Positions 17,119 to 45,307 of a stretch of DNA of 64,000 nt are shown here, piece after piece; position 1 is the stretch's first letter, and every line of letters begins with the position of its first letter. A model generated the notes under the pieces. The model had not been told where the DNA came from and did no database searches. It saw only the letters and a list, made by a program, of their open reading frames with translations. Source of the stretch: Nocardioides cynanchi (GTDB lineage Bacteria; Actinomycetota; Actinomycetes; Propionibacteriales; Nocardioidaceae); assembly GCF_008761635.1 (NCBI RefSeq), contig NZ_CP044344.1:496001-560000 (forward strand), written 5' to 3'. Position numbers and translations under genes: made by a program.

Positions 17119-18702
17119 GTGAGCAAGACCCCCGGCAAGGCCAAGGACAAGCACGGCCCCACGATGGAGGCGCGCACCGCCGAGATGCTCGAACGGCGCG
17201 CCGAGATCGAGAAGGGCGGTGGTGAGGCCCGGCTGGAGAAGCAGCACGCCCAGGGCAAGCTGACCGCCCGCGAGCGGATCACCGCGCTGCTCGACCCCGG
17301 CACCTTCGAGGAGACCGGGATGTTCGCCCGGCACCAGTCGACCTACTTCGGTCTCGACACCGCCGACTACCCCGCCGACGGCGTGGTCACCGGTGAGGGC
17401 GCGGTCCTCGGCCGCCCCGTCCACGTGGCGAGCCAGGACTTCACGGTCGCCGGCGGGAGCGCGGGGGAGATCCACTCGAACAAGGTGGCGGCGACGATGC
17501 GGGCCAGCCTCGGGACCGGTACGCCGTTCGTCTTCATCAACGACTCCGGGGGGGCCCGCGTCCAGGAGGGCATCGGCTCGCTCGCGGGCTACGGGCGGGT
17601 CTTCTACAACAACGTGCTGCTCTCCGGCGTCGTCCCCCAGATCTCGATCATCGCCGGACCCTGCGCGGGGGGCGCGGCGTACTCCCCGGCGCTGACCGAC
17701 TTCGTGATCCAGACCCGCCTGGCCCACATGTTCATCACCGGGCCCGGCGTGATCGCGCAGGTGACCGGCGAGCAGGTCACCTCCGACGAGCTCGGTGGTG
17801 CCGACGCCCACATGGCGATGTCCGGGGTCAACCACTTCGTGGCCGACGACGACGAGCAGGCGATCCTGATCGCCAAGAAGCTGCTCACCTTCCTGCCCCA
17901 GAACAACTCCGAGGACCCGCCGATCGTCGACCCCGACTACATCGTCGAGCCCGACCCCGAGCTGGCGGCGGTCATCCCGGCGTCCGACAAGAAGGGGTAC
18001 GACGTCCGCGAGGTCATCCTGCTCCTGGTCGACCACCAGGACTTCCTGGAGGTGCAGGCGGGGTACGCCGGCAACATCGTCGTGGGCTTCGGCCGGATCA
18101 CCGGCCGGACGGTCGGTGTCGTCGCCAACCAGCCGATGGTGCTCTCCGGGGTGCTCGACATCAACTCCTCCGACAAGGGGTCGTCGTTCGTGCGCTTCTG
18201 CAACGCGTTCAACATCCCGCTGCTGACGCTGGTCGACGTACCAGGCTTCCTGCCCGGCGTCGAGCAGGAGCACAACGGGATCATCCGGCACGGCGCGAAG
18301 CTGCTCTACGCCTACTCCGCAGCGACCGTCCCGAAGATCACCGTCGTGCTCCGCAAGGCCTACGGCGGCGCCTACGTCGCCATGTGCTCGAAGGACCTCG
18401 GCGCTGACAAGGTGCTCGCCTGGCCGACGGCCGAGATCGCGGTGATGGGCGCCGAGGGTGCGGCCGAGATCGTCTTCCGCCGTGAGATCGCGGCCGCGGA
18501 GGATCCAGAGCTGCGCCGCAAGGAGCTCGTCGAGGAGTACCGCTCGACGTTCTCCACGCCGTACGTCGCCGCGGCGCGCGGGCTGGTCGACGACATCATC
18601 GACCCGGCCCGCACCCGTGAGCACGTGTCCCGGGCGCTCGAGCTGCTGGTCACCAAGCGCACGATCCGGCCGGCCAAGAAGCACGGGCTGGGCCCGACAT
18701 GA
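17119..18702 (+). CDS. Transcarboxylase 12S subunit / acyl-CoA carboxylase beta chain
   Basis: 527 residues, normal for the family. Moves the carboxyl group between methylmalonyl-CoA (or propionyl-CoA) and biotin. Crotonase-like double domain: first oxyanion-hole region GGAYSPALTDF-type segment (CAGGAAYSPALTD), NDSGGARVQEG, and the second half VDVPGFLPGVEQE and AYGGAYVAMCSKDLG. GTG start 8 bases after the 5S stop. By itself it could be the beta chain of propionyl-CoA carboxylase; the neighbouring 5S and 1.3S genes argue for transcarboxylase. Confidence 0.93.
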   Translation: MSKTPGKAKDKHGPTMEARTAEMLERRAEIEKGGGEARLEKQHAQGKLTARERITALLDPGTFEETGMFARHQSTYFGLDTADYPADGVVTGEGAVLGRPVHVASQDFTVAGGSAGEIHSNKVAATMRASLGTGTPFVFINDSGGARVQEGIGSLAGYGRVFYNNVLLSGVVPQISIIAGPCAGGAAYSPALTDFVIQTRLAHMFITGPGVIAQVTGEQVTSDELGGADAHMAMSGVNHFVADDDEQAILIAKKLLTFLPQNNSEDPPIVDPDYIVEPDPELAAVIPASDKKGYDVREVILLLVDHQDFLEVQAGYAGNIVVGFGRITGRTVGVVANQPMVLSGVLDINSSDKGSSFVRFCNAFNIPLLTLVDVPGFLPGVEQEHNGIIRHGAKLLYAYSAATVPKITVVLRKAYGGAYVAMCSKDLGADKVLAWPTAEIAVMGAEGAAEIVFRREIAAAEDPELRRKELVEEYRSTFSTPYVAAARGLVDDIIDPARTREHVSRALELLVTKRTIRPAKKHGLGPT

Positions 18703-18974
18703 GCCCGGAACCACCGGTCGAGCAGACGGTCGCCGAGCTGCTCGAGACGGTCCGGGCGCTCACCGACCGGGTCGCCCACCTGGAGTCCGCGCTCTCGGAG
18801 CAGAAGGCGGCCGGGGTCCCCGAGGAGGTCGTGATCGCGATCTCGGCCGCTGTGGCGGCGTACCTCGGGCACCGGGCGAAGATCAAGCAGATGCACTACC
18901 GCACCGGCGCCTCCTGGGCGCAGCAGGGACGTGCGGTTGTCCAGGGACGCCACGACACACAGCCCTCGAGGTAG
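18699..18974 (+). CDS. Small transcarboxylase-associated protein
   Basis: 91 residues. A coiled-coil-like N-terminal helix (VAELLETVRALTDRVAHLESALSEQK) is followed by PEEVVIAISAAVAAYLGHRAKIKQ, a stretch found in small proteins or gamma-chain tails of biotin-dependent decarboxylase and carboxylase systems. It starts in the ATGA overlap with the 12S gene and ends 5 bases before the 1.3S gene, the same place as a small open frame in Propionibacterium transcarboxylase operons. Likely an assembly or linker subunit; no enzyme motif is seen. Confidence 0.8.
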   Translation: MSPEPPVEQTVAELLETVRALTDRVAHLESALSEQKAAGVPEEVVIAISAAVAAYLGHRAKIKQMHYRTGASWAQQGRAVVQGRHDTQPSR

Positions 18975-18979
18975 AGACG

Positions 18980-19333
18980 ATGCAGCTCAGAGTCACAGTC
19001 AACGGCGTCGAGTACGAGGTCGAGGTCGAGGTCGAGGAGGAGCCGAAGCCCACCCTCGGCGCGATCTTCATGACCGGCGGCAGCTTCACACCCACCCACG
19101 TCCAGACCGTCGGTCCGTCGACCAACGGGGTCCAGGCACCGCTGTCCGGCACCGTCGCCCGGGTGCTGGTCGAGGAGGGCCAGAGCATCGAGTCCGGTGA
19201 TGTCGTCGTCGTGCTCGAGGCGATGAAGATGGAGACCGAGATCACCGCCCCCCGCAGCGGCTGCGTGGCGGCCGTCCTGGTCACCGCCGGCACCGCCGTC
19301 ACCGGCGGACAGGTGCTCATCGAGCTGGACTGA
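18980..19333 (+). CDS. Transcarboxylase 1.3S biotin carrier protein
   Basis: 117 residues. Carries biotin between the 12S and 5S active sites. The biotinylation motif EAMKMETE is intact with Lys at about 83. The N-terminal part (VTVNGVEYEVEVEVEEE) is the binding strand seen in 1.3S subunits, then a flexible linker, then the hammerhead domain (QAPLSGTVARVLVEEGQSI to GQVLIEL). ATG chosen with GAGG 8 bases upstream; the longer frame from 18458 is a shadow of the 12S gene. Last gene of the 5S-12S-small-1.3S operon. Confidence 0.94.
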   Translation: MQLRVTVNGVEYEVEVEVEEEPKPTLGAIFMTGGSFTPTHVQTVGPSTNGVQAPLSGTVARVLVEEGQSIESGDVVVVLEAMKMETEITAPRSGCVAAVLVTAGTAVTGGQVLIELD

Positions 19334-38798: not shown

Positions 38799-40220
38799 TC
38801 AGAGCGGGATGTTGCCGTGCTGACCGCGGCGCACGCCGACGGCCTGCACCGCGTCGTAGATCGCGCGGGCCAGGGCGGTGCGGGTCTGCGCCGGCTCGAC
38901 GATCTCGTCGACCACGCCGATCTCCACGGCCTTCTCCACCCCACCGGCCTGCCGCTCGTGCTCGGCAGCGAGCTCGGCCTCGACCTGGGGACGGATCTCG
39001 GGTGAGACCTCGGCCAGCTTGCGCCGGTGCAGCACCCTGATCGCCGCCACGGCCCCCATCACCGCCACCTCGGCGCCCGGCCACGCGAACACCTTGGTCG
39101 CTCCCAGGGAGCGGGCGTTCATCGCGATGTAGGCGCCGCCGTAGGTCTTCCGCGTCACCAGGGTCACCCTGGGTACGACGCACTCGCCGAAGGCGTGCAG
39201 GAGCTTGGCGCCACGGCGTACGACGCCGTCCCACTCCTGCCCGACGCCCGGCAGGTAGCCGGGCACGTCCACGAGCACGATCAGCGGGACGCCGAGGGCG
39301 TCGCACAGCCGGACGAAGCGCGAGGCCTTCTCCGCCGACAGGGAGTCCAGGCAGCCGCCCAGCCGCAGCGGGTTGTTGGCCACCACGCCGACGGTGCGGC
39401 CGCCGAGGCGCCCGAGGGCGGTGACGATGTTGGGCGCCCAGCGCTCGTGGAGCTCCTGCATGGTGTCGTCGTCGAGGACCGCTGCGACCAGCGGGTGCAC
39501 GTCGTAGGCACGCTTCTTGGACTCCGGCAGCATCCGAGAGAGGTCGCGGTCCTCGACCAGGTCGAGGTCCAGCTGGCCCTGCGAGCCGAACAACGAGGCG
39601 ACCGTGCGGGCGCGCTCGAGTGCCTCGGCCTCGCTGTCGGTGAGGATGTGGACCACGCCGGAGCGTCGCCCGTGCGGCTCGGGTCCGCCGAGGCGCAGCA
39701 TGTCGACGTCCTCACCGGTCACTGAGCGGACCACGTCGGGCCCGGTCACGAAGATCCGGCCCTCGGGTCCGAGGATCACCACGTCGGTCAGGGCCGGGCC
39801 GTACGCCGCGCCACCGGCGGCCGGGCCGAGCACGACCGAGATCTGCGGGATCTTGCCCGAGGCCTGGGTCATCGCCTGGAAGATCCGGCCGACCGCGTGC
39901 AGCGACAGCACGCCCTCGGCGAGCCGGGCGCCCCCGGAGTGCCACAGGCCGATGATCGGGGTGCCCTCGGTCATCGCCCGGTGGTAGGCGTCGACGACCA
40001 CTCGGCAGCCGACGTCGCCCATCGCGCCGCCCATGACCGTGGCGTCGGAGCAGAACGCGACGACGCGCCGGCCCTTGACCCGGCCGACCGCGGCGAGCAT
40101 CCCGGAGTCGTCCTCGGGAGTGATCAGCCGCAGGGTGCCTTCGTCCAGCAGCGCGGTGAGCCGGTGCAGCGGGTGGCGGGGGTCCTCGGTGCGCGGTGGC
40201 TTGGTCGCGGTGGCGGTCAT
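38799..40220 (-). CDS. accD: Acyl-CoA carboxylase carboxyltransferase (AccD6-like beta chain)
   Basis: 473 residues. Transfers carboxyl from biotin to acetyl-CoA or propionyl-CoA to supply malonyl-CoA to FabD. Two crotonase-like halves: GGARLAEGVLSLHAVGRIF, GPAAGGAAYGPALTDV, then VDVPGYLPGVGQEWDGVV and TYGGAYIAMNARSLGA, all intact. It has no N-terminal zinc finger, so it belongs to the acyl-CoA carboxylase type rather than bacterial AccD. The ATG overlaps the fabF stop (TGATG). A partner biotin carboxylase/BCCP is not in the window. Confidence 0.92.
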   Translation of the reverse strand: MTATATKPPRTEDPRHPLHRLTALLDEGTLRLITPEDDSGMLAAVGRVKGRRVVAFCSDATVMGGAMGDVGCRVVVDAYHRAMTEGTPIIGLWHSGGARLAEGVLSLHAVGRIFQAMTQASGKIPQISVVLGPAAGGAAYGPALTDVVILGPEGRIFVTGPDVVRSVTGEDVDMLRLGGPEPHGRRSGVVHILTDSEAEALERARTVASLFGSQGQLDLDLVEDRDLSRMLPESKKRAYDVHPLVAAVLDDDTMQELHERWAPNIVTALGRLGGRTVGVVANNPLRLGGCLDSLSAEKASRFVRLCDALGVPLIVLVDVPGYLPGVGQEWDGVVRRGAKLLHAFGECVVPRVTLVTRKTYGGAYIAMNARSLGATKVFAWPGAEVAVMGAVAAIRVLHRRKLAEVSPEIRPQVEAELAAEHERQAGGVEKAVEIGVVDEIVEPAQTRTALARAIYDAVQAVGVRRGQHGNIPL

Positions 40221-41458
40221 CAGACCGACCCGAAGGCGACGGCGACGTTGGCCCCGCCGAACCCGAAGGAGTTGTTCAGGGCGGCGATGTCGCCCGACGG
40301 CAGGTCGCGGGCGGTGGTCGGGATGTCGAGCTCCACCTGAGGGTCCTTGTCGTCCAGGTTGATCGTGGGAGGACTGACCCGGTGGTGCAGGGCCAGCACG
40401 GTCGCGATCGCCTCGAGGGCGCCGGCGCCACCGAGCAGGTGGCCGGTCATCGACTTGGTGCTGGTGACCACGACCTGGTCGGCGTGCGAGCCGAGGGTCG
40501 CGTGGATCATCAGGCCCTCGGCGATGTCGCCCTGCGGGGTCGACGTCGCGTGCGCGTTGATGTGGGCGATGTCCGAGGCGGAGATCCCGGCCTCGTGCAG
40601 CGCCCGCACGATCGCCCGGGCCCCACCGCGTCCGGCCGGATCGGGCTGGGCGATGTCGTGGGAGTCGGCGGTGATGCCGGCGCCGAGCACGGTGGCGTAG
40701 ATCCTGGCGCCGCGCGCCAGAGCATGCTCCTCCGACTCCAGCACCAGGACGCCGGCTCCCTCGCCGAGCACGAACCCGTCGCGGGCGAGGTCCCAGGGCC
40801 GGGAGACCGTGGTCGGGTCGCCGTCGTTCTTCGACAGCGCCATCATGTTGGCGAACGCCGCCATCGGCAGCGGGTGGATCGCCGCCTCGGTGCCGCCGGC
40901 CAGGACGATGTCGGCGCGGCCGAGCCGGATCTGGTCCAGGGCCAGGGAGATGGCCTCGTTGCCCGAGGCGCACGCCGAGACCGGGGTGTTCACGGCGGCC
41001 CGCGCGCCGACGTACAGGCTGATGTTCGCGGCCGGGGCGTTGGGCATCAGCATGGGTACGGCGAGTGGTGAGACCCGGCGCGGACCCTTCTCGAGCAGGG
41101 TGTCGTAGTTGGCGAGCAGGGTGGTGACCCCGCCGATGCCCGAGGCCATGGCGACGCCGAGCATGTCGTTGTCGATCTCGGCGCCCTCGAGCCCGGAGTC
41201 GGCCCAGGCCTCCATGGCCGCCACCATCGCGAACTGGGAGGAGCGGTCGAGCCGGCGGGCCTTGACCCGCTCCAGCACGTCACCGGGCTCGACGGCGATC
41301 CGGCCGGCGATCTTGACCGGCATCCCCTCGACCCAGGCATCGTCGAGGTGACGGACGCCGGACTGGCCCTTGATCAGGGCGTCCCAGGTGGACGACACGT
41401 CGCCACCGACCGGGGAGGTCGTCCCCAGGCCGGTGACGACGACACGCTTGACAGACAT
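40220..41458 (-). CDS. fabF: Beta-ketoacyl-ACP synthase II
   Basis: 412 residues. Elongates acyl-ACP with malonyl-ACP. Catalytic Cys about 163 (NTPVSACASGNEA), first His in NAHATSTPQGD, and KSMTGHLLGGAG with the Lys and second His; C-terminal NNSFGFGGANVA. ATG at 41458 is chosen with GAGG about 7 bases upstream; the longer frame to 41488 adds an unlikely leader. Shares TGATG with accD downstream; 56 bases follow acpP. Confidence 0.96.
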   Translation of the reverse strand: MSVKRVVVTGLGTTSPVGGDVSSTWDALIKGQSGVRHLDDAWVEGMPVKIAGRIAVEPGDVLERVKARRLDRSSQFAMVAAMEAWADSGLEGAEIDNDMLGVAMASGIGGVTTLLANYDTLLEKGPRRVSPLAVPMLMPNAPAANISLYVGARAAVNTPVSACASGNEAISLALDQIRLGRADIVLAGGTEAAIHPLPMAAFANMMALSKNDGDPTTVSRPWDLARDGFVLGEGAGVLVLESEEHALARGARIYATVLGAGITADSHDIAQPDPAGRGGARAIVRALHEAGISASDIAHINAHATSTPQGDIAEGLMIHATLGSHADQVVVTSTKSMTGHLLGGAGALEAIATVLALHHRVSPPTINLDDKDPQVELDIPTTARDLPSGDIAALNNSFGFGGANVAVAFGSV

Positions 41459-41514: not shown

Positions 41515-41760
41515 TCAGCCCTGGGCGTTCTCGATGAAGGAGACGGCGTCGCCGACGGTCTTGAGGTTCTTCACCTCGTCGTCGGGGATGGACACGCCGA
41601 ACTTCTCCTCGGCGGCCACGACGACCTCGACCATGGACAGCGAGTCGACGTCGAGGTCGTCGACGAACGACTTGTCGAGCTGGACGTCCTCGACGGGGAT
41701 TCCCGCGACCTCGTTGACGATCTCGGCGAGGTCGGCGCGGATCTCTTCGGTGGTGGCCAT
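41515..41760 (-). CDS. acpP: Acyl carrier protein
   Basis: 81 residues. Four-helix acidic carrier; the phosphopantetheine serine is Ser 40 in DVDSLSM. It carries the growing chain for FabD, FabH and FabF, whose genes surround it. GAAAGGA just before the ATG is a good ribosome site. Confidence 0.97.
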   Translation of the reverse strand: MATTEEIRADLAEIVNEVAGIPVEDVQLDKSFVDDLDVDSLSMVEVVVAAEEKFGVSIPDDEVKNLKTVGDAVSFIENAQG

Positions 41761-41800: not shown

Positions 41801-42802
41801 TCACGGGACGGTGATGACCTGGGCGGCATACGCCAGGCCGGCACCGAACGCGATCAGCAGCGCGATGTCCCCGCTGCGGGCCTGGTCCTCGACCATCATC
41901 CGGTCGAGGGCCAGGGGAATGGAGGCCGCCGAGGTGTTGCCCTGCTCGGCGATGTCGCGGGCGATCCTCACCCGCTCGGGGAGCTTCATGGCGCGGGCCA
42001 TGGCGTCGATGATCCGCATGTTGGCCTGGTGCGGCACGAACACGTCGAGGTCGTCGACGGTCAGCCCGGACAGCTCCAGCGTCTGCTGCCCGACCTTGGC
42101 CATGGTGAAGGAGGCCCACCGGAAGACCGGGTTGCCGAGCATCATCAGGTTGGGCATCTCGGACTTCCCGGCGGCGATCACGTCGCGCCAGTCCTCCTTC
42201 TGCCGGATCAGGTCGTACTGCTCACCGTCCGAGCCCCAGACGACCGGGCCGATGCCCGGCTTGTCGCTGGGTCCGACGACGGCCGCGCCGGCGCCGTCGG
42301 CGAAGATGAACGCCGTACCGCGGTCGGTGGTGTCGGTGATGTCGGACAGCCGCTCCACCCCGATCACCAGGACGTGCCCGGCGCCGCCACCGCGGACCAT
42401 CTGGTCGGCGAGCGCCAGACCGTGGCAGAAGCCGGCACACGCCGCCGAGATGTCGAAGGCGGCAGCCTGGTCGGTGCCGAGCTCGTAGGCGATCGCCGGG
42501 GCGATCGCCGGGGTCTGGAGCATGTGGGAGACGGTCGCGACGATCACGCAGTCGATCTGCGCCGCGGAGATGCCGGCGCGCTCGATGGCGCTGCGCGAGG
42601 CGGCCACCGACATCATCTGCACGGTCTCCTCGGGCGTGGCGAAGCGGCGCTGCTTGATCCCCGATCGCTGCTGGATCCACTCGTCGCTGGAGTCGATGGC
42701 GTCGACGATGTCGGCGTTGGGCACGATCCGCGACGGGCGGTAGCTGCCGACGCCGAGCACCGCGGAGTACGCCGCTCCGGCGACCGGGACGATCGTGGCC
42801 AT
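41801..42802 (-). CDS. fabH: Beta-ketoacyl-ACP synthase III
   Basis: 333 residues. Starts fatty acids from acyl-CoA and malonyl-ACP. Catalytic Cys about 122 (ISAACAGFCHG), His in FVPHQANMRI and Asn in EQGNTSAAS, complete. ATG shares one base with the fabD stop (TGATG). In actinobacteria this enzyme often prefers branched starters. Confidence 0.96.
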   Translation of the reverse strand: MATIVPVAGAAYSAVLGVGSYRPSRIVPNADIVDAIDSSDEWIQQRSGIKQRRFATPEETVQMMSVAASRSAIERAGISAAQIDCVIVATVSHMLQTPAIAPAIAYELGTDQAAAFDISAACAGFCHGLALADQMVRGGGAGHVLVIGVERLSDITDTTDRGTAFIFADGAGAAVVGPSDKPGIGPVVWGSDGEQYDLIRQKEDWRDVIAAGKSEMPNLMMLGNPVFRWASFTMAKVGQQTLELSGLTVDDLDVFVPHQANMRIIDAMARAMKLPERVRIARDIAEQGNTSAASIPLALDRMMVEDQARSGDIALLIAFGAGLAYAAQVITVP

Positions 42803-43986
42803 CAGGCGGCTCCCTCGGGGTGGAGCCGGACCAGGGGCTGACCGGGGGAGACCAGGTCGCCGTCCTCGACCAGCCACTCGACGACCTGGCCGCCGTGCGG
42901 TGCGTGGATGGCGGCCCGGTCGCGCGAGCTGGCGACGTCTCCGAGGGTGGCCCCGGGGGCGAGGATGCCGACCTCGGCGGCCTCGGCGTCGCGGTGGAAG
43001 GTGCCCTTCATCGGGGAGACGACCATCATCCAGGTGGGCGTGGTCTCGATCATCGAGGCCTCGCCGTGCTTGGCGCAGAACGCGCGGGCGTCGTCCAGCT
43101 GGTCGGGGGTCTTCAGGGCGAAGGTCTCCACACCGGGAAGCGCGCGCTTCGCGATGCCGACCAGGGTGCCGGCGGGAGGCATCTCGAGGATCCCGGTGAC
43201 TCCCAGGTCGCTCATCGTCTCCATGCAGAGGTCCCACCGCACGGGGCGGGCGATCTGCCCGACGATCCGGGCGATCACCTCGCGGCCGTCGTGCACGATC
43301 TGGCCGTCCCGGTTGGAGATCACCGGGGTGCGGGGGTCGTGGGTCGAGACCGAACGGGCCAGGGTGGCCATCCGGCCGACCGCCTGCGCCATGTGCTCGG
43401 TGTGGAACGCTCCGGCGACGCTGAGCGGGATCAGCCGCGCCTTGGCGGGAGGCTCGTCGGCCAGGGCCTGGAGCTGCTCGAGGGTGCCGGCCGCGACGAT
43501 CTGCCCGGGCCCGTTGTCGTTGGCGGCGGTGAGGCCCTGGGCCGCCAGCGCGGCCAGCACCTCGTCGCGGTCGCCGCCCAGGACCGCGGTCATGCCGGTC
43601 GGGGTGACCGCGGAGGCCTCGGCCATCGCGTTGCCGCGCTCGCGGACCAGGACCATCGCCTGCTCGGCGGTGATCGCCCGGGCGCCGGCGGCGGCCGCGA
43701 TCTCCCCGACGCTGTGGCCGGCCACGGCCCCGATCTGGCTGAACGCGTCGGCCGGGTGGGGGAAGAGCTCGAGGGCGGCGATCAGCCCGGTCGCCACGAG
43801 CAGTGGCTGCGCGATCCTGGTGTCGCGGATGGTCTCGGCGTCGGCCTCGGTGCCGTAGTGGGCCAGGTCGAGGTCGGCCACGGTCGAGAGCCACTCGAAC
43901 CGCGAGGCGAAGGTGGTGTCCTCGAGCCAGGGTGTGAGGAAGCCGGGAGTCTGGGCTCCCTGACCGGGGGCGACGATGACGAGCAC
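42802..43986 (-). CDS. fabD: Malonyl-CoA:ACP transacylase fused to a degenerate biotin-carrier-like domain
   Basis: 394 residues, about 80 longer than usual FabD. Residues 1-305 are normal: GQGAQ near the start, nucleophile Ser 92 in GHSVGE, Arg 117, His 195 in AFHTEH. Residues about 318-391 look like a BCCP hammerhead domain: SPMKGTFHR (compare SPMVGTFYR of E. coli BCCP), GATLGDV, then HAPHGGQVVEWLVEDGDLVSPGQPLVRL. Where BCCP has EAMKM the text is ASSRD, so the biotin lysine is Arg 355. It should not be biotinylated. A 3'-end inverted repeat of fasR lies 65-90 bases upstream, a likely operator. Confidence 0.93.
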   Translation of the reverse strand: MLVIVAPGQGAQTPGFLTPWLEDTTFASRFEWLSTVADLDLAHYGTEADAETIRDTRIAQPLLVATGLIAALELFPHPADAFSQIGAVAGHSVGEIAAAAGARAITAEQAMVLVRERGNAMAEASAVTPTGMTAVLGGDRDEVLAALAAQGLTAANDNGPGQIVAAGTLEQLQALADEPPAKARLIPLSVAGAFHTEHMAQAVGRMATLARSVSTHDPRTPVISNRDGQIVHDGREVIARIVGQIARPVRWDLCMETMSDLGVTGILEMPPAGTLVGIAKRALPGVETFALKTPDQLDDARAFCAKHGEASMIETTPTWMMVVSPMKGTFHRDAEAAEVGILAPGATLGDVASSRDRAAIHAPHGGQVVEWLVEDGDLVSPGQPLVRLHPEGAA

Positions 43987-44050: not shown

Positions 44051-44075
44051 CTCTTTGTAGGGTTCCTACAAAGAG
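44051..44075. promoter_or_regulatory. Inverted repeat upstream of fabD, candidate FasR operator
   Basis: Perfect 11-bp arms CTCTTTGTAGG and CCTACAAAGAG with GTT between. It overlaps the fasR stop codon and lies 65 bases before the fabD ATG. It could be an operator for the fab operon, a hairpin that ends the fasR message, or both. A site bound by FasR is the first guess because FasR acts on fabD promoters in Streptomyces. Confidence 0.6.
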
Positions 44076-45307
44076 GCTGGGTCCGAGGGGGCGGGCTCCG
44101 CCACCCCCCGCGGGGACTGCCGACCCAGCACGAGCGCCAGCTGCAGGGTCAGGGCGTCGCGCGGGTCCGTGGCGGCGAGCCCGGTCAGCTCGGAGGCCTG
44201 CCGGAGGCGGTAGCGCACCGTGTTCGGGTGCACGAAGAGCGCCCGCGCGGCGGCCTCGAGCGACTGCCCCTGCTGGAAGTACGCCGTCAGGGTGTCGATC
44301 AGCGTGCCCTTGTGCCCACCGGCCTGCCGCAGGGGCAGGTAGACCTCCTCCACGAGGTGGCGCCGGGCGTGGCCGTCGCCGGCGAGCACCCGCTCGGGCA
44401 AGAGGTCGTCGGTGGCCACGGGTCGCGGTGCGTCGGGCCAGCCGGTCGCCGCCCGCAGCCCGGAGAGCGCGGCGCGGGCCGAGGTGTGGCCACTGCTGAG
44501 GTCGTCGGCTCGCGGGCCGACCACGACCGGACCGTCGCCGAAGAACCGGACCACCGCGCTGGCAGCCTTGTCGGGGTCCTCGACGCCACCGAGGATCACC
44601 ACGAGTCGGTCGCCCTGGATGGCGCAGAGCGCGTCCAACCCTTTGCCCCGGGCGGCACGGCGTACCTCCTCGAACAGGTCCGGCGAGCGGGGGGAGGGTA
44701 CGGCGCCCAGCACCACCGCCACGCCCTCGCTCTGGGCCCAGCCCAACGCACTCGCCCGAGACTGCACCGCCTCGTCGGCCTCGGCCCGCAGCACGGAGTC
44801 CACGACGAGTGCCTCCAGCCGGGCGTCCCAGGCGCCGCGGGCCTCAGCCGCGCGGGCGTAGACCTCGGCGGTGGCGAAGGCGACCTCGCGGGCGTAGCGG
44901 AGCACCGCGGCGTGGACGGCGGGAGCGTCGGCCGGGTCGACGACCTCGTCGACGTGGGACTCCACGACCTCGATCCCGAGCCGCACCAGGTCCACCGTCT
45001 GGCCCAAGGTGATCACCCCGGTCAGGGTGCGGGGGGCCGCCCCGAACACGGCCGCGGCGGTGTCGCCGGGGAACGCGTCGTCGTCGTCGAGCCGGAACCA
45101 GTCGACGAACCCCCTCATGCCGGCCTGGAGGATCTGGCCGACCCAGGCGCGGCTCTCGGCGCTCAGGTCGGCGAACCACGGCATGTCGGTGAGCATCCGT
45201 GACATGGCGGCGCTGCTGAGCGACCCGGTGGCCCGGCCCAGCGCCAGGGCCGCGCGTTCCCGCGACCCGCCACCGGGGGTCGGGAGCGCTTGGACGCGGG
45301 CGGGCAT
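44066..45307 (-). CDS. fasR: PucR/CdaR-type regulator, FasR-like
   Basis: 413 residues. The C-terminal PucR-type helix-turn-helix is clear (QSLEAAARALFVHPNTVRYRLRQASELTGL); the middle is a GGDEF-like degenerate domain and the N-terminal third is helical. Position directly before fabD-fabH-acpP-fabF matches FasR, the activator of fatty acid synthesis in Streptomyces. ATG 45307 is the longest start; an inner ATG about 34 residues in is possible. It presumably controls the fab operon through the inverted repeat after its end. Confidence 0.9.
   Translation of the reverse strand: MPARVQALPTPGGGSRERAALALGRATGSLSSAAMSRMLTDMPWFADLSAESRAWVGQILQAGMRGFVDWFRLDDDDAFPGDTAAAVFGAAPRTLTGVITLGQTVDLVRLGIEVVESHVDEVVDPADAPAVHAAVLRYAREVAFATAEVYARAAEARGAWDARLEALVVDSVLRAEADEAVQSRASALGWAQSEGVAVVLGAVPSPRSPDLFEEVRRAARGKGLDALCAIQGDRLVVILGGVEDPDKAASAVVRFFGDGPVVVGPRADDLSSGHTSARAALSGLRAATGWPDAPRPVATDDLLPERVLAGDGHARRHLVEEVYLPLRQAGGHKGTLIDTLTAYFQQGQSLEAAARALFVHPNTVRYRLRQASELTGLAATDPRDALTLQLALVLGRQSPRGVAEPAPSDPASL

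Follow-up and report, generated by a model that had tools for sequence, protein, structure and literature searches.

The FabD of Nocardioides cynanchi, a malonyl-CoA:acyl carrier protein (ACP) transacylase, carries a C-terminal tail with the predicted fold of a biotin carboxyl carrier protein (BCCP) but with an arginine, R355, in place of the biotinyl lysine. The gene lies at 42802..43986 on the minus strand of the window (the whole stretch of DNA analysed, 64,000 nucleotides, positions 496,001 to 560,000 of contig NZ_CP044344.1). It is the first gene of a tight minus-strand operon of fabD, fabH, acpP, fabF and accD, the last of which encodes an AccD6-type carboxyltransferase. We propose, with a probability of about one half, that the tail docks FabD on this carboxyltransferase, so that malonyl-CoA would pass straight to the enzyme that charges ACP with it. 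The tail is read as a docking module because it has the predicted shape of an AccD partner, is fused to FabD, has no biotin lysine and is inherited together with AccD. Its shared presence and absence with AccD make docking likely.

Transfer of malonyl-CoA from acetyl-CoA carboxylase (ACC) to the bacterial type II fatty acid synthase (FAS) is usually pictured as free diffusion. If the proposal is true, a carrier mimic that forms part of FabD and is inherited with one carboxyltransferase would make a physical link between ACC and FAS directly testable, with natural strains lacking both tail and AccD usable as controls. Judged by title and abstract, none of the papers listed in searches of the open-licence PMC literature for a FabD–BCCP fusion, a pseudo-BCCP or contact between FabD and a carboxylase dealt with such a feature.

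The FabD tail resembles a BCCP without its lysine

An earlier note on this DNA had described an intact gene for a complete malonyl transacylase followed by a BCCP-type tail that lacks the biotin lysine, and this description is borne out. The open reading frame (ORF) starts with GTG and encodes 394 residues, of which residues 5-284 are covered by Acyl_transf_1 (Pfam, E 2.4e-19). The transacylase fold is present with its catalytic serine (GHSVGE) and histidine, and within the catalytic core (residues 1-309; 43060..43986, minus strand, as are all features below unless stated) both S92 and H195 are invariant. A linker of residues ~310-317 (43036..43059), modelled with low confidence (predicted local distance difference test score below 50 at 314-317), leads to the tail at residues 318-391 (42814..43035).

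The profile matches to the tail all fall short of curated cut-offs. The C-terminal part of FabD matches Biotin_lipoyl_2 with E 1.8e-6 (28.1 bits, cut-off 29.8) and the whole protein matches Biotin_lipoyl (PF00364) with E 0.0035 (17.6 bits, cut-off 22.1), the latter rising to 21.6 bits, still under the cut-off, for the tail alone. In NCBIfam, the BCCP family TIGR00531 (E 4.7e-4, residues 316-388) and PRK07051 (E 1.6e-6, residues 322-388) are also matched below cut-off. Nevertheless the similarity is more than chance, because the tail is conserved in about 30 family codes, 37 of 39 diverse FabD tails match Biotin_lipoyl at E<=0.01, and the predicted structure resembles solved BCCPs. Structure prediction thus did not return a tail unrelated to BCCP, an outcome the earlier note had raised, and the prediction for the tail is a BCCP-type domain with the biotinyl-lipoyl (hammerhead) fold.

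Where a BCCP has EAMKM, the tail reads ASSRD, as had been noted; R355 (codon 42922..42924) stands where the biotinyl lysine would be, in the turn of the hairpin (residues 353-356). We class the tail as BCCP-like rather than as a BCCP because the lysine of AMKM is absent from the hairpin; relative to the biotinyl domain of BCCP/AccB (1BDO, PF00364) it has arginine for lysine in the turn and no known biotin carriage. Nor is the tail general to FabD: the enzyme of Streptomyces coelicolor (1NM2) is a chain of 317 residues without it, and the solved chain of Mycobacterium tuberculosis FabD, at 303 residues, also has none. Where sources name tailed FabDs, they are called simply S-malonyltransferases or acyltransferase-domain proteins.

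Arginine at position 355 is strongly conserved. It fills this column in 120 of the 131 locus rows that have a letter there and in 235 of 241 proteins (counting the window's own), the rest being three glutamine, two glycine and one asparagine. Neither set has a lysine, so the search for a biotinylated lysine among close homologues came out negative. In many of the exceptions an arginine sits one position earlier. These R355 counts exclude one divergent tail, that of locus L293.

The tail is spread through the class

A match to the full FabD protein occurs in 180 of the 245 family genomes. With the tail alone as query, 121 of the 196 order genomes and 143 of the 394 class genomes gave a match at E<=0.001, counts that include weak matches on other proteins. 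Score and reading-frame size were used to judge the 118 class matches from G365 upward: 103 were accepted as FabD tails and the 15 weak ones were set aside. Class and order together account for the 30 or so family codes mentioned above. In a search of the phylum with the tail profile, none of the matches listed from outside the class exceeded 54 bits (122 for the window's own tail), and these lay in open frames of many sizes.

Tail-less forms occur close to home. In 14 genomes of the same genus (L229-L242) FabD stops at about residue 310-318; G158, one more genome of the genus, and G119 have FabD cut at contig ends and were excluded from scoring. The tail, a pseudo-BCCP by sequence, is class-wide and comes with natural controls. 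One genome of the genus, G085, rated 100% complete, gave no match for either FabD or type I FAS.

Tail and accD tend to be kept or lost together

AccD in the fabD operon is, by sequence, an orthologue of AccD6: its residues 11-473 match M. tuberculosis AccD6 (4fb8) with E 3.4e-194, whereas PccB is matched with only about 1e-116. An AccD6-type carboxyltransferase is likewise found in the M. tuberculosis FAS-II locus, which holds fabD and accD6.

We scored three sets of loci. Sixty diverse loci were taken, two of them without FabD (L212, L213) and one ending inside fabF (L206). Of 80 named loci (four titled Nocardioidaceae, the rest Nocardioides), six had too little of the operon and two more could not be scored for accD. 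From 251 class genomes without a clear tail, 80 were searched and 40 loci taken; L273 was cut off, and L293, chosen as tail-less, turned out to end in a divergent tail and was moved to the tailed loci. Across the class 120 operons have both tail and accD, eight the tail only, 17 accD only and 35 neither, with four tailed operons unscorable (Fisher p 5e-17, ignoring relatedness). In the named set accD is present in all 72 scorable tailed loci, while it is beside the operon in none of the 14 same-genus tail-less genomes. Whole-genome searches of these 14 gave at best a paralogue at 43-44%, compared with 88% in two tailed genomes of the genus, and the AccD orthologue therefore seems to be gone.

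A later test used cases that had played no part in forming the hypothesis, namely five low-scoring FabDs from other genera of the family. Four of these have no tail, stopping at residue 311-320, and in all four genomes the AccD orthologue is absent (best match 43-44%), as the docking reading predicts; four tailed genomes from two of the same genera have AccD at 78-82%. In the fifth case FabD breaks off at residue 247 and the genome has AccD on another contig.

In the family sample of 97 rows, accD is present in 79/79 scored tailed operons and absent in 18/18 tail-less ones. On the FabD-FabH-FabF tree of these rows the tail changes seven times, which corresponds to about seven joint losses, and accD changes with it in all six independent pairs that lie on supported branches (p 0.031). 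A smaller tree of 88 rows, all contained in the larger one, gave five of five pairs (p 0.0625). The class-wide tree (130 rows, including 22 of the 72 named rows) has 12 independent supported-branch pairs, with 6.8 changes in the same and 0.5 in the opposite direction (median p 0.031, range 0.008-0.29).

Other causes of joint loss were considered. One deletion taking both tail and accD is ruled out, since fabH, acpP and fabF, which lie between them, remain. In G008, where FabD is tail-less, a 40-residue stub of accD (AccD residues 434-473; L318:5052-5187) directly follows fabF, and accD was therefore removed there by a separate deletion. Replacement of the whole operon is unsupported, as the FabD, FabH and FabF of tail-less strains nest among those of tailed relatives. 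A takeover by type I FAS was rejected as it was found in none of the 14 same-genus tail-less genomes, to which the check was applied and not to the four of other genera; these strains therefore seem still to depend on this FabD. By comparison, type I FAS is present in seven of eight genomes picked for lacking a clear FabD match.

The identity of residue 355 may also follow accD. R355 is exact in 113/119 tailed loci with accD and in 3/8 without (Fisher p 9e-5), and if arginine at either 354 or 355 is accepted the figures are 117/119 and 5/8 (Fisher p 0.0016, median pair p 0.25). On the side of the carboxyltransferase, the 68 loci with accD have arginine at residue 176 of AccD (codon 39693..39695) in 48 of the 51 that are tailed and in one of the 17 that are not. 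This difference, 0.88, is the largest of any scored column in AccD, FabF, FabH, ACP and the FabD core. The column test used 46 diverse and five named tailed loci, L116, L173 and L192 being left out for frame or truncation. In M. tuberculosis AccD6 the equivalent position is a serine. Placing R176 at the first oxyanion hole was considered but dropped, as alignment with S. coelicolor PccB puts it well downstream of the AGGA motif that forms this hole.

Proposed docking and its alternatives

According to PMC4347857, AccD6 produces malonyl-CoA by carboxylating acetyl-CoA, and no contact between it and the epsilon subunit was seen in mycobacteria. In the proposed mechanism the AccD6-type enzyme of the operon would form malonyl-CoA from acetyl-CoA, the tail would contact AccD by the surface that a real BCCP uses, with R355 and AccD R176 perhaps in or near the contact, and FabD would consume the malonyl-CoA delivered from the docked AccD. 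FabD would thereby be tethered, and AccD would be modulated to some extent but not simply inhibited. A broader version, which we hold only tentatively and as less probable than not, is that this is an ancient and class-wide device of the Actinomycetes. A dead biotin carrier on FabD would park the transacylase at the BCCP-docking face of AccD6, forming a malonyl-CoA hand-over complex that joins ACC to type II FAS, and where AccD6 is lost the tail would decay or be lost.

Several observations weigh against docking. Tested by independent pairs, the links of accD with exact R355 (median p 0.125) and of the tail with AccD R176 (four pairs in the same direction, none opposite, p 0.125) are weak. Columns of the FabD core track the tail too, F75 with 0.78, second overall, and E287 with 0.73, and part of the column signal may come from shared ancestry or from contact between tail and core. 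The ratio of tail to core rates has a median of 2.37 without accD (n=8) and 1.48 with it (n=47), but at a one-sided p of 0.06 this is only suggestive of a tail that evolves under relaxed constraint where accD is missing. Eight tailed loci have no nearby accD (L182, L198, L199, L202, L205, L217, L218, L226); in seven of these genomes no orthologue and no AccD match above 47% was found, the eighth, G454, has an AccD at 60% elsewhere, and three of the eight loci keep R355. There are also the 17 tail-less loci with accD, some of them mycobacterial-looking by gene order. The earlier suggestion that the tail concerns the neighbouring AccD is thus upheld by the co-occurrence within the family and by AccD R176, though strict dependence fails at the level of the class: the tail usually implies AccD6, while AccD6 does not imply the tail.

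Two of these loci, L198 and L199 (G454, G546), come from one family with a tailed FabD, no accD left in the operon and the hairpin sequence RQG; in G454 the 60% AccD sits far from the operon.

The closest known kind of system is that of the plant BADC (biotin/lipoyl attachment domain-containing) proteins of heteromeric acetyl-CoA carboxylase; if the docking reading is true, the tail would be their bacterial counterpart. As described in PMC12873504, these proteins too have a BCCP-like domain without biotin attachment and concern acetyl-CoA carboxylase, which they are reported both to slow and to help assemble. They differ in being separate proteins that act with biotin carboxylase (BC) and BCCP, whereas the FabD tail is fused and is linked statistically to AccD. 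By analogy the tail could be a brake that fills the BCCP site of AccD, with arginine standing in for carboxybiotin, so that the abundance of FabD limits carboxylation and sets the output of malonyl-CoA. The predicted fold and the lost lysine are as in BADC, and the same text has BADC first described as negative regulators and only later as assembly aids; we nevertheless think a brake unlikely, since fusion to the consumer of the product would fit delivery better than inhibition. Somewhat less probable still is a role in assembly, with the tail bridging the AccD6-type carboxyltransferase and the BC-BCCP alpha subunit as epsilon does for AccD4 and AccD5. It would suit the lack of an interaction between AccD6 and AccE and the dimeric state of M. 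tuberculosis AccD6, both given in PMC4347857, but the 17 tail-less loci with accD, including the mycobacterial-looking L296, L297 and L308, mean that assembly does not always need the tail. The main effect of docking may be tethering, slowing of AccD or aid to assembly.

The tail may instead serve FabD itself or ACP, through stability, dimerisation or gating of substrate, the link to accD then reflecting shared ancestry of operon types. The FabD-core columns that track the tail and the eight tailed loci without accD, three with R355 intact, would be explained in this way. We regard it as no likelier than a role in assembly, given the seven or so joint losses of tail and accD in the family while FabD stays, the absence of type I FAS from the 14 genomes tested and the finding of an AccD orthologue in 0/18 tail-less genomes.

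The operon and other carboxylase genes

Downstream of fabD lie fabH (41801..42802), whose start overlaps the fabD stop (TGATG), acpP for the acyl carrier protein (41515..41760), fabF (40220..41458), whose stop overlaps the accD start in the same way, and accD (38799..40220), the fourth gene after fabD. For accD a 724-residue ORF over-calls the start and the 473-residue form is preferred. Co-expression of the operon would follow from the gene order and the two TGATG overlaps, the only grounds for it.

Upstream of fabD is a gene for a PucR-type regulator (44066..45307). Between the two is an inverted repeat, read by eye, with arms of 11 nucleotides and a spacer of three (44051..44075; CTCTTTGTAGG-AAC-CCTACAAAGAG), which may be an operator of this regulator. 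In at least 15 of the 77 named loci scanned, a palindrome similar in sequence is found 86-89 bases upstream of fabD, a lower bound since one best palindrome was taken per locus.

Genuine biotin carriers with EAMKM are encoded elsewhere in the genome, and the FabD tail is therefore not the only BCCP-like domain of the cell. At 17377-19327 on the plus strand of the window a second carboxyltransferase gene (43% to AccD) precedes an ORF whose biotin domain has a genuine EAMKM site; together they probably encode a separate biotin-dependent carboxylase. At locus L009 a frame of 81 residues (genome C1:2865948-2866130) encodes little more than a biotinyl domain with ESMKM and is a candidate for a small free-standing biotin carrier.
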